Below, piece after piece: positions 26,435 to 33,420 of a stretch of 33,770 bases of DNA. Location of the stretch: positions 1-33,770 of the IMG/VR virus record IMGVR_UViG_3300044695_000106, one strand, 5' to 3'. The position numbers and the translations under genes are program-made. The number at the start of each line of letters is the position of its first letter. The stretch's first letter is position 1. The notes under the pieces were generated by a model. The model was given only the letters and a program-made list of their open reading frames with translations, had not been told where the DNA came from and ran no database searches. This DNA is from a virus.

Positions 26435-26692
26435 TTATTCCTCTACCACCGCACAAATGTCGGCTTCTTGAATGATTTGGTAGTCCTGACCATCAATCTT
26501 TTGGGTGGGCCAATTAAGGTAATCCCCGTTCCCATACTTGATGAAGTCTCCCACCTTGACATCGTAAACCTTTGGGCCGATGGCGACAATAGTCCCCTCG
26601 TTAAAGGCTTCTTTGTTGTTCACATAGATGATGTCGGATAAATTTCGCACCTGTGGTTTTACCACAACACGATCACGCAATGGTGTCAGCAT
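26435..26692 (-). CDS. GroES-like co-chaperonin (cpn10)
   Basis: This 85-residue protein is a little shorter than bacterial GroES (97). It opens with LTPLRDRVVVK, the canonical cpn10 start, and has a mobile-loop region at about residues 15-30. There SDIIYVNNKEA replaces the GGIVL-type GroEL-binding tripeptide (IIY for IVL). EGTIVAIGP, VKVGDFIKYG and the C-terminal strand with ICAVVEE complete the beta-barrel. It should cap the host GroEL, as T4 gp31 does. It is upstream of the coat gene, whose P22 relative needs GroEL/ES. Start ATG overlaps the preceding stop. Confidence 0.9.
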   Translation of the reverse strand: MLTPLRDRVVVKPQVRNLSDIIYVNNKEAFNEGTIVAIGPKVYDVKVGDFIKYGNGDYLNWPTQKIDGQDYQIIQEADICAVVEE

Positions 26693-29557: not shown

Positions 29558-30022
29558 TTATCTCCTTAATTCTGCTAGTTTGGCTCGGATGTGATCTGGC
29601 ATCGGTGCAGCCTTTTTGCGGTCAGCTTCAATCTTTGCCAAGGCAGGGTCTATTGTGGGTTTGGGCTTCATTTCAGGCACTTCAGCGCCATCCCATCGTT
29701 GTTGGTTGAGATAGACCTTGGGGGCGGGAATAAATGCCCCGTTGTCTTTCAACCAGGCGGCTGTGGTTGCCATCCATTGAACGTGTTTAAGGATGATGTG
29801 CTTTTGACTGAAGTAATAGGATTCAACCCATTTTTTCTTGCAAGCAGCTTTTTCGCCTTTGCGTTCACATTTGGGATAAGCCACCCAAAATTCTTCAAAA
29901 CCTTCATCAGTTAAAAAATGCTTTTGGGGTTGTTCAAACCCAAATAAATCCATTGTTTTTTCTTTAGGCATAGGTTCTCCAAGGGTGGATATACCACCTT
30001 TCTCCATCGATCTGTTTTCCAT
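29558..30022 (-). CDS. Replication-type protein (phage O/DnaT-like C-terminal domain)
   Basis: This protein of up to 154 residues has the core EGFEEFWVAYPKCERKGEKA, then WVESYYF, then GAFIPAPKVYLNQQRWDGAE. That is the domain found at the C-terminus of many phage O-type and DnaT-like replication proteins ('FW..YP.K..K..A...W ... FIP.P..YLN...W'). It probably recruits host helicase or primase. The annotated start is ATG 30022 (154 aa). ATG 29971 has a better site (GGAG five bases upstream) and would give 137 residues. No helicase gene is present, so host replication machinery is needed. Confidence 0.77.
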   Translation of the reverse strand: MENRSMEKGGISTLGEPMPKEKTMDLFGFEQPQKHFLTDEGFEEFWVAYPKCERKGEKAACKKKWVESYYFSQKHIILKHVQWMATTAAWLKDNGAFIPAPKVYLNQQRWDGAEVPEMKPKPTIDPALAKIEADRKKAAPMPDHIRAKLAELRR

Positions 30023-30039
30023 AATTCATCTTAATTTAG

Positions 30040-30333
30040 CTAACTAAAAACAAAAGCGACCAAGTGCGCTTGACGGGTCAATTCACTTATAGATTGGGCC
30101 TTGTTCCACCTTTGTACCCAATCCTTTACCAGTCGCTTAACCAACGCTGGTCGGCAAGTCAGGGGGTGTGTCCTGTTGTCGGTGTTTTCTTCCAAGCCAT
30201 CCATGCAAATGCGCTGCTGTCGTGTGGAGTACGGCTGCACGAAAAAAGGACATAAAAAAAGCCGTTTACTACTGCCCTCGGTAGGAACCCTAAAGTAAAA
30301 ACCAAGGGCGAGAGCATGAGTAAACGGCTTCAA
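30040..30333 (-). CDS. TTG-start ORF overlapping the c4-like RNA (Ash/Icd-like candidate)
   Basis: This 97-residue frame opens with a TTG at 30333 and AGGAA eight bases upstream. Its first ~25 codons lie over the structured RNA. It reads as basic/hydrophobic (ALALGFYFRVPTEGSSKRLF), then a hydrophilic half with VKRLVKDWVQRWNKAQSISE. In P1 and P4, and many prophages, ORFs of the Icd or Ash type overlap c4/CI RNAs in this way. That resemblance is by arrangement; I cannot confirm homology. An inner ATG at 30204 has no ribosome site. The frame may be non-coding. Confidence 0.38.
   Translation of the reverse strand: MKPFTHALALGFYFRVPTEGSSKRLFLCPFFVQPYSTRQQRICMDGLEENTDNRTHPLTCRPALVKRLVKDWVQRWNKAQSISELTRQAHLVAFVFS
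30254..30330 (-). ncRNA. c4/CI-like structured antisense RNA candidate
   Basis: On the leftward RNA a perfect 12-pair outer stem (30330-30319 with 30270-30259) encloses an inner stem, GCCCTTGG with CCGAGGGC. The inner stem has eight pairs, one U-G. Its 20-base loop carries TTAGGGTTCCTA. A T-run of seven follows. Read in the opposite direction the inner U-G becomes a C-A mismatch and the T-run is lost, so the leftward strand is the functional one. Loop bases TTCCTAC (30287-30281) complement GTAGGAA at 30348-30342. The plan fits P1 c4 and P4 CI antisense immunity RNAs. It also acts as a plausible terminator for the Cro-like transcript. Confidence 0.55.
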
Positions 30334-30341
30334 TTTATTGC

Positions 30342-30348
30342 TTCCTAC
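30342..30348 (-). promoter_or_regulatory. Shine-Dalgarno / antisense target complementary to the RNA loop
   Basis: GTAGGAA on the leftward RNA contains AGGAA, eight bases before the TTG at 30333. It is exactly complementary over seven bases to the loop of the structured RNA at 30254-30330. This is the relation expected of a c4 or P4 seqA target. The pairing could be in cis (pseudoknot) or in trans. Confidence 0.5.
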
Positions 30349-30376
30349 GGCAACGATTTAATTATAAGCACATTTT

Positions 30377-30535
30377 TTATTTGTTGTCAAACCATTCTGG
30401 CTTGAGGATCATCAATTGATAAAGCCGCCCCGTTGGGATCATCTTCCAATTGTGTACTGCCGCCCTGGTGATGCCCAAGATGCGAGCAAGCTCACTCTGT
30501 GAGCCAGCAAGGGTGATAGCCTTTTGTTTATCCAT
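30377..30535 (-). CDS. Cro-like repressor, 52 residues, leaderless
   Basis: This 52-residue helix-turn-helix protein begins MDKQKAITLAG. SQSELARILGITRAAVHNWK then forms the two DNA-binding helices, followed by MIPTGRLYQLMIL and a short tail. The plan and length match P22-type Cro proteins. It has no ribosome binding site. An extended -10 box ends six bases before the ATG, so translation is probably leaderless. It should bind the AATAGCGTT operators between the divergent promoters and repress one or both. It is below usual size cutoffs and easily missed. Confidence 0.88.
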   Translation of the reverse strand: MDKQKAITLAGSQSELARILGITRAAVHNWKMIPTGRLYQLMILKPEWFDNK

Positions 30536-30541
30536 TTCGCA

Positions 30542-30550
30542 AGTATATCA
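30542..30550 (-). promoter_or_regulatory. Extended -10 promoter for the Cro-like gene
   Basis: On the minus strand, TGATATACT gives an extended -10 (TGn) joined to TATACT, five of six consensus bases. The predicted start is the A of the ATG at 30535. No clear -35 is present, which extended -10 promoters tolerate. The palindromic operator 30551-30570 lies immediately upstream. Confidence 0.6.
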
Positions 30551-30570
30551 AAATAGACAAAACGCTATTT
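30551..30570. promoter_or_regulatory. Palindromic operator upstream of the Cro-like gene
   Basis: AAATAG, eight bases, CTATTT form a 20-base inverted repeat abutting the extended -10 of the Cro-like gene. Its right arm contains AACGCTATT, the reverse complement of AATAGCGTT at 30648-30656 in the opposing promoter. It is the natural binding site of the Cro-like protein; this is inferred from symmetry, position and repetition. Confidence 0.62.
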
Positions 30571-30622
30571 GTAAAAAAGCAACAACTAAGGGAAATCCCT
30601 AGCAATTATTTTTAAAAAGGGC

Positions 30623-30650
30623 TTGATTGCCGTACACCAATCTATACAAT
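30623..30650 (+). promoter_or_regulatory. Rightward early promoter
   Basis: TTGATT (30623-30628) and TACAAT (30645-30650) are spaced 16 bases. The -10 matches five of six consensus bases. Transcription would begin near 30657, upstream of the first early gene (ATG 30699). The operator copy AATAGCGTT overlaps the -10 and start region. The -35 and spacing match the late promoter at 27579-27606. Confidence 0.6.
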
Positions 30651-30656
30651 AGCGTT
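30648..30656 (+). promoter_or_regulatory. Operator half-site in the rightward promoter
   Basis: AATAGCGTT here is the inverted copy of the arm at 30561-30569. It overlaps the -10 box, so a bound protein would block RNA polymerase. The partner arm is poor, so binding may be weaker than at the palindrome. Confidence 0.5.
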
Positions 30657-30698
30657 CATGCCCTAGCACTTCGCATGGGGTCTTTTTAGGAGTCAGAA

Positions 30699-32036: not shown

Positions 32037-32591
32037 ATGTCAATCGCTAATTTACTTAAAACCAATGTTAACGACCACACTGAGAAGAAAGCCAATCTAA
32101 CTTATCTGTCTTGGGCATGGGCATGGGCTGAAGCAATCAAAGCAGACGCTAAAGCCACCTTCAAGGTTGAGATGTTTGGTGACAAGTGCTTCATGGACAT
32201 TAACGGCACAGCAATGGTGTGGGTCACAGTTACCATGTTTGACAAGCCAATGACTTGCCAACTTCCCGTGATGGATCACCGCAACAAAGCCATCGTGAAC
32301 CCTGATGCTTTCCAAGTAAACACAGCCATCATGCGTTGCATGACCAAAGCACTCAGCTTGCATGGTCTCGGTCTGTACATCTACGCAGGGGAAGATTTGC
32401 CCGATGGTGAAGAACCACAGTCCAACATTGACCCTGATAGCATGGCAGACCTATTCAAAGCCATTGAGCAAGCCACCACTCAAGACGAATTGAAGTTGGC
32501 TTACAAGATCGCATATTCTGCTTGTGATGGCGACAAAGCATGGCAGATCAAAGTCATTGCAGCTAAAGACAAAGCAAAGGCCAAACTATGA
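32037..32591 (+). CDS. Single-strand annealing protein, Sak3/DUF1071 type
   Basis: This 184-residue protein begins MSIANLLKTNVNDHTEKK. LTYLSWAWAWAEAIKADAKA, VWVTVTMFD and VNTAIMRCMTKALSLHGLGL are the hallmarks of the DUF1071 / Sak3 annealing-protein family. It anneals single strands during recombination and replication. It forms a module with the exonuclease gene 200 bases downstream and the SSB-like gene. The C-terminal ~50 residues are a helical extension. AAGGA precedes the ATG. Confidence 0.88.
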   Translation: MSIANLLKTNVNDHTEKKANLTYLSWAWAWAEAIKADAKATFKVEMFGDKCFMDINGTAMVWVTVTMFDKPMTCQLPVMDHRNKAIVNPDAFQVNTAIMRCMTKALSLHGLGLYIYAGEDLPDGEEPQSNIDPDSMADLFKAIEQATTQDELKLAYKIAYSACDGDKAWQIKVIAAKDKAKAKL

Positions 32592-32797
32592 AAACTGATG
32601 AAGATGACGAATTCGACCGCATTGAGCATGAAGCAAAAATGAGATGTGGTCAGCCATACCATTGGGATGTGTTTGTGTCTCCCTCACAGCGCAATCAAGT
32701 CCTAGAGGAAGTGGCTAAAGAAATTCAAAAGATGACCGCCTTTGGTCAAGACACATTGGACAGTTTTAGCGTTTACATAAAAGGAATGAAAAAATGA
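32588..32797 (+). CDS. Small protein between annealing protein and exonuclease
   Basis: This 69-residue protein has an acidic start (MKTDEDDEFDRIEHEAKMR) and a compact domain with HWDVFVSPSQRNQVLEEVAKE. Overlaps of four bases at both ends place it firmly between the annealing protein and exonuclease genes. It may belong to the recombination module. I recognise no family. Confidence 0.72.
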   Translation: MKTDEDDEFDRIEHEAKMRCGQPYHWDVFVSPSQRNQVLEEVAKEIQKMTAFGQDTLDSFSVYIKGMKK

Positions 32798-33420
32798 TTG
32801 AAATGATGGATCAAGGCACAGAGGAATGGTTCACCATTCGGATTGGCAAAGTCACCGCTTCCCGTGTGGCAGATGTGATTGCCAAGACAAAGACGGGTTA
32901 CAGCGCCAGCCGTGACAACTACATGGCTCAATTGGTGTGCGAACGCCTGACGGGTCAAAAGGGTGAGAGTTTCACCAATGCTGCCATGCAACACGGCACA
33001 GAGACAGAACCCCTTGCTAGAGCCGCTTATGAGGCTTTACAGGATGTTTTGGTTGATGAAGTGGGGTTTGTACCCCATCCCACAATTGAGATGGCTGGCG
33101 CTTCTCCTGATGGCATGGTGGGCGATGATGGTCTGATTGAGATCAAATGCCCCAACACCGCCACACACATTGACACGCTGTTGTCTCAAACAGTGCCTGG
33201 CAAGTACAACACCCAGATGCAATTCCAAATGGCTTGCACAGGGCGTAAATGGTGTGACTTTGTGTCTTTTGACAATCGTCTGCCAGAGGAACTTCAATTG
33301 TTTGTGATGCGAGTCCCACGGGATGAAGTGTTTATCAGACTAATAGAAGCTGAAATTGTCCAATTCCTTGCTGAACTGGATGACAAGATCAATAAACTAA
33401 TGAAAGTCAAAAATGTCTAA
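32794..33420 (+). CDS. YqaJ/lambda-type exonuclease
   Basis: This 208-residue protein begins with QGTEEWFTIRIGKVTAS, the YqaJ-family N-terminus. HGTETEPLARAAYE, GASPDGMV (D106) and IEIKCPN (E116, K118) give the D/E-x-K nuclease site of the lambda exonuclease group. QMQFQMACTGRKWCDFVSFD completes the pattern. It degrades one strand of double-stranded ends to feed the annealing protein at 32037. The neighbouring small genes and SSB-like protein complete the module. Its end overlaps the SSB-like gene start by eight bases. Confidence 0.93.
   Translation: MIEMMDQGTEEWFTIRIGKVTASRVADVIAKTKTGYSASRDNYMAQLVCERLTGQKGESFTNAAMQHGTETEPLARAAYEALQDVLVDEVGFVPHPTIEMAGASPDGMVGDDGLIEIKCPNTATHIDTLLSQTVPGKYNTQMQFQMACTGRKWCDFVSFDNRLPEELQLFVMRVPRDEVFIRLIEAEIVQFLAELDDKINKLMKVKNV

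Follow-up and report, generated by a model that had tools for sequence, protein, structure and literature searches.

Gene content and control region

The DNA analysed here, called the window in the following, is the whole IMG/VR record IMGVR_UViG_3300044695_000106 with a length of 33,770 bases. Both of its ends carry an identical direct repeat of 127 bp. The genome is therefore complete and either circular or circularly permuted, in line with the complete circular genome of a preliminary description made from the letters alone, and its unique length is about 33.64 kb.

The locus is centred on a Cro-like gene that sits between divergent early operons, with replication genes in the leftward and recombination genes in the rightward direction (Table 1). 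The encoded protein matched the Pfam families P22_Cro (6.8e-9, 35.8 bits, cut-off 30.2) and YdaS (1.3e-9, 38.2 bits, cut-off 30) and fell into PHROG 409, transcriptional regulator (1.2e-9). The gene had been called Cro-like before, and these matches bear this out; a Cro function in the phage is predicted from them. Beyond cro, Pfam and PHROG profiles identified an O-like replication protein, RusA, NinB and others in the leftward operon, where the replication initiation gene aligned to the C-terminal part of the lambda-O-like family. The virion and recombination genes, among them those for the Sak annealing protein, the YqaJ exonuclease, RusA and NinB, had full open frames, in keeping with their intact look in the preliminary description. 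At the end of the PL operon a winged-helix protein (100-426, +) fell into PHROG 1123 and matched no repressor family; it is a possible second early regulator. The phage also encodes a GroES-like co-chaperonin (26435-26692, -; PHROG 3188, 4e-10), while GroEL was not evident.

Table 1. Positions of the genes, promoters and RNA elements at the cro locus and in the adjoining operons.
Feature	Position	Strand	Basis or remark
Lambda-O-like replication initiation gene	29558-30022	-	PHROG 9474, 6.6e-13; PHROG 270, 1.2e-11
Second structured RNA (E2), about 190 nt	30046-30230	-	Covariation
Class A small RNA, about 100 nt	30252-30355	-	Pseudoknot GUAGGAA:UUCCUAC; long hairpin ending in U-run terminator
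Sigma-70 promoter of class A RNA, TTGACA-18-TATAAT	30361-30390	-	Overlaps 3' end of cro; score 12/12
Cro-like (P22_Cro / YdaS family) regulator, 52 aa	30377-30535	-	Pfam, PHROG
Divergent control region, intergenic	30536-30698	.	Layout kept in 72 distinct intergenic regions
PR, looks like extended -10 (TGATATACT)	near 30542-30547	leftward	
Inverted copies AACGCTATT / AATAGCGTT	30561-30569 / 30648-30656		Within control region
Operator-like palindrome TAGGGATTTCCCTTA (cro strand)	30587-30601	.	Conserved in relatives
PL, -35/-10	30623-30650	+ (rightward)	Score 9/12
Conserved 5' hairpin of PL leader	30660-30682	+	Just upstream of first ribosome-binding site
Sak single-strand annealing protein	32037-32591	+	PL operon; PF06378, 4.1e-43
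YqaJ exonuclease	32794-33420	+	PL operon; PF09588, 3e-28

The distance between cro and the first rightward open reading frame is about 160 bp, which leaves no room for cI. By itself the score of PL was not above that of shuffled sequences; PL and PR are better backed by their conservation among relatives. A palindrome of the form TAGG-N5-8-CC(C/T)TA was found in 50 of 72 distinct intergenic regions, compared with 0.2 expected from shuffles. The divergent promoters that had been proposed for this region are upheld and the proposed operators are matched by operator-like DNA, while the label of an immunity region is an interpretation and not an observation. At its extreme 5' end the PL transcript carries a hairpin, followed by TCTTTTT or TCTATTT and then by the first ribosome-binding site. 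This hairpin pattern recurred in 75 of 81 loci with arms that varied between loci, and it may serve to attenuate transcription or to stabilise the mRNA.

Absence of lysogeny genes in the window and its relatives

In the genes scanned with Pfam and PHROGs, all except a few small structural ORFs and a single tail-fibre gene, no CI, integrase or recombinase was revealed. A six-frame profile search of the window genome with PF00589, PF00239, PF00717, PF01656 and PF00665 gave no match, and profile searches of the same genome found neither S24 nor an above-cut-off CI/HTH_3 domain. Neither a transposase nor a ParA or other partition gene was found in the complete window genome, nor was any remnant of cI or int. 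This agrees with the preliminary description, which had noted the lack of a CI-type repressor and of an integrase and had advised profile searches of the early proteins for repressor, integrase and partition families; most predicted proteins were scanned and none matched a family of these kinds. Of the components of a lambdoid immunity region, neither the CI-type maintenance repressor nor a lysogeny enzyme was detected in the window, and we found nothing in the genome that is able to maintain lysogeny.

Relatives of the window Cro are encoded by 379 stretches of the IMG/VR viral contigs. We compared 80 of these with the window and with one contig from a metagenome-assembled genome (MAG); 81 loci could be assessed behind cro and one more was cut off there. 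In the loci compared, cro and the early operon opposite it start from either side of a short stretch of about 150 bp, and a CI-free layout was common to all 81 assessable loci. A tyrosine integrase was absent from 50 longer Cro relatives as well as from 41 records with the class A RNA described below, and serine recombinase, S24 repressor and ParA were absent from the same 50 Cro relatives. In one of these 50 records (L081) an 86-aa ORF (G049:5846-5998, -), located about 3 kb from cro, gave the only HTH_3 match above the cut-off.

A search of about 85,000 prokaryote genomes returned a single close Cro match, on an 8.8-kb contig of a Comamonadaceae MAG on which the neighbours of cro are phage genes. 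Searching 401 Comamonadaceae genomes added three Cro matches of lower strength; the portal protein, searched for without a positive control, was not matched in them. Thus, looking for a circular replicon or prophage in host data, as had been suggested, produced one phage-only contig and no prophage form of any relative, including in the 401 genomes of this candidate host family. No annotated plasmid or cultured phage with the full RNA slot of the window was found either. These negative results are strong for the clade and not absolute, since most records are fragments and Comamonadaceae are only a candidate host family. As judged from the loci compared, the CI-less state is normal for the clade.

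Structured RNAs between cro and the replication gene

The slot behind cro was occupied by one of four structured RNA classes in 81 of 81 assessable loci (class B in 39, C in 21, D in 11 and A in 10). In most loci no more than about 30 nt lie between the stop codon of cro and the start of the RNA, and in a few an ORF intervenes. Classes A and D were accompanied by a replication gene of the PHROG-9474 type in 20 of 20 tested loci and class C by one other type in 18 of 18, while class B occurred with several types. At the same time, 151 pairs of loci in which Cro differs at no more than 2 residues carry different RNA classes. Since the RNA class tracks the replication gene and not cro, the RNA is part of a replication module that is swapped behind a constant cro. 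A diverged class-C-like RNA was seen between a YdaS-type gene and a replication gene in L230 (5740-6005, MW202520), with apparent compensatory changes, read by eye, that include the leader before the start codon; the same record holds a separate int-alpA match (1762-1828, -).

The window carries class A. Its structure including the pseudoknot was paired in 98.2% of cells across 36 distinct sequences with double changes at 9 pairs, values that none of 500 shuffles reached. Of 45 distinct sequences upstream of class A, 37 held a sigma-70 promoter that scored at least 10/12, compared with 0.8% of shuffles. The preliminary description had spoken of a c4-like RNA. A structured RNA next to cro is real, while its membership in C4 (RF01695) was rejected: the window gave no C4 match at E<=10, and the P4 RNA used as positive control was recognised with 74.9 bits. 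The window's own RNA likewise gave no covariance-model match to int-alpA (RF02996), and at a permissive threshold no Rfam match to class A or to E2 was obtained in the window. We found no description of class A in the literature, of which the part on the int-alpA motif was covered only thinly; the family is apparently undescribed.

The class A loops are nearly invariant. By pattern search the RNA was found in 58 contigs and many contexts, and in L173, L217, L224 and L208 it lies directly upstream of capsid-region genes. Because class A occurs also away from cro, its role need not be replication control. A pairing with the O leader that is plausible by eye was discarded, as its duplex energy ranked only 723 of 13,492 windows and as its target motif in the leader (GGAGAACC) was missing downstream of class A in the majority of other phages. 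Neither duplex-energy ranking nor leader-motif conservation thus indicated a cis target for class A, which we infer to be expressed and to act in this phage.

Between the class A RNA and the replication gene lies E2. Across 33 distinct sequences 97.5% of its cells were paired and 20 of 38 pairs showed compensatory double changes, values again reached by 0 of 500 shuffles. The frequent G-U pairs on the cro strand would fit an RNA transcribed in the direction of cro. An ORF at 30040-30333 was rejected as a protein gene; it is spurious because the two covarying RNAs overlap it and because relatives carry indels relative to each other that would shift the reading frame. In L011, L024, L052, L053 and L060 another element, E2b (GTGCAATGCGGTACG...), replaces E2 behind a class D RNA and looks structured. 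Rfam searches of E2 and of the class D/E2b loci L011, L024 and L060 returned no relevant match.

Class B, the most frequent class, is int-alpA-like. Two loci (L076, L077) passed the gathering score of RF02996 and a third (L020) matched below it; in other members the int-alpA motifs and the built-in terminator were present. The loop of the second hairpin complements the replication-gene leader, the stretch from the terminator of the RNA to the start codon; some loci have two copies of the complement. We compared the longest complement of each loop to its own leader with that after permuting the partners, as raw duplex energies are GC-biased. For 15 distinct seeds the mean was 6.0 nt, compared with 4.57 nt (sd 0.30) in the permuted sets. 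This value was reached by 2 of 50,000 permutations, a figure that serves as a guide rather than an exact probability because related seeds were treated as independent. Class B thus resembles the arrangement of P4 with another RNA in its place. The complementarity could also act in cis as an alternative hairpin within one transcript. Antisense control of replication is supported by this complementarity for class B and is only inferred for the window.

Interpretation of the locus

Taken as a whole, the locus is on balance best explained by a Cro-only control region joined to an RNA-replication module, with no evident means of maintaining lysogeny. The phage would accordingly be CI-less, Cro-only and lambda-organised with a P22-like virion, and the locus its early bidirectional control region. 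Most likely the Cro-like protein occupies operators in the intergenic region and represses its own PR as well as the opposite PL as infection proceeds. In the replication module a self-terminating, promoter-driven class A RNA would be followed by E2 and then by the O-like gene. By analogy with class B the RNA probably tunes the expression of the replication gene, as timing or copy control, and may act by base-pairing or by control of termination, somewhat like the CI RNA of satellite phage P4. Given the P4-style look of class B and the missing target for class A, we take control of the replication gene to be what the slot most likely does, with moderate confidence, and treat immunity as a rival.

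That rival takes the small RNA as a maintenance repressor which blocks replication-operon expression in resident and superinfecting phages alike. The CI RNA of P4 indeed blocks its own replication operon via seqA and seqC (PMC4825925), the class B seeds vary among phages along with their targets as immunity specificities would, and the slot is exchangeable behind a nearly identical Cro. Yet neither an integrase nor a partition gene was found, nor a phage in prophage or plasmid form, and the RNA of the window is not C4 and has nearly invariant loops with no identified target, so that we judge this decidedly unlikely. RNA-based immunity, as raised in the preliminary description, is an unproven hypothesis, and the comparative evidence favours control of the replication gene. 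Somewhat less doubtful is an obligately lytic phage whose Cro serves solely to time early transcription and whose RNAs have their target in the host or in a phage process other than replication. Class A as a free-standing unit of promoter, RNA and terminator in varied contexts, including beside capsid genes, would suit such a role. We still consider it unlikely, as in phages of the Cro clade the class of RNA is tied to the replication gene and class B complements its leader.

Two further accounts appear very improbable. The lambda-like gene order, the Cro and the divergent early operons could be left from a phage that was once temperate and lost its cI and int genes not long ago. However, the whole clade lacks cI and shares the identical layout with its compact, conserved intergenic region, and no remnants were seen, such that a turn from temperate to lytic as an event in this genome, which had been proposed, is hard to uphold. 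Alternatively, the circular genome could persist as an episome, with the RNA setting its copy number. Antisense RNAs often do so in plasmids, and the terminal repeat is compatible with a circular form, but a circularly permuted virion genome predicts this repeat equally well; neither a ParA match nor a plasmid record with the RNA was obtained. The plasmid-like lysogen suggested earlier thus has no partition gene behind it, as far as the ParA profile search goes. Read most simply, the phage is lytic and has Cro only; the lytic lifestyle is deduced, and for a clade of such phages a CI-less region is by itself ordinary.

What deserves attention is instead the set of exchangeable, replication-linked structured RNAs, of which at least two have no Rfam entry. 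Under the Cro-only explanation a suspected defective immunity region becomes the general layout of a large clade, a Cro-only switch with a swappable RNA-replication module. Two structured RNA elements without Rfam entry, class A and E2, are added, and int-alpA-like RNAs gain a testable role, namely base-pairing with the leader of the adjoining replication gene. It is conceivable, though in our view rather unlikely, that in these widespread CI-less aquatic phages the exchangeable RNAs, each matched to its replication gene, are the main specificity-bearing repressor of replication. If true, they would confer immunity to superinfection or control of copy number, and no protein repressor of lysogeny would be involved.

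Comparison with known systems

As in immC of lambda and P22, a Cro-type regulator heads the replication operon, a recombination operon diverges from it and operators lie in between. The window differs in that it has neither cI nor integrase, in its short intergenic region and in the RNA genes that separate cro from the O-like gene. Related Cro-type proteins head the early operons of EBPR podovirus 1, Pantoea phage PdC23 and the Manatee Spring phages, in which a motif check found no class A RNA behind cro; the Manatee Spring record MW202484 has part of E2 in common with the window, about 2 kb downstream of cro.

With C4, the CI RNA of P4, the RNA of the window shares the position of a structured RNA that heads a replication operon and is proposed to act on it. 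In P4 the RNA pairs with seqA and seqC, which leads to premature termination of its own replication operon (PMC4825925). The window RNA differs in sequence and fold and has its own promoter and an intrinsic terminator. The int-alpA RNA resembles class B of the relatives rather than class A of the window, and within this clade such int-alpA-like RNAs are placed behind cro and ahead of the replication gene.
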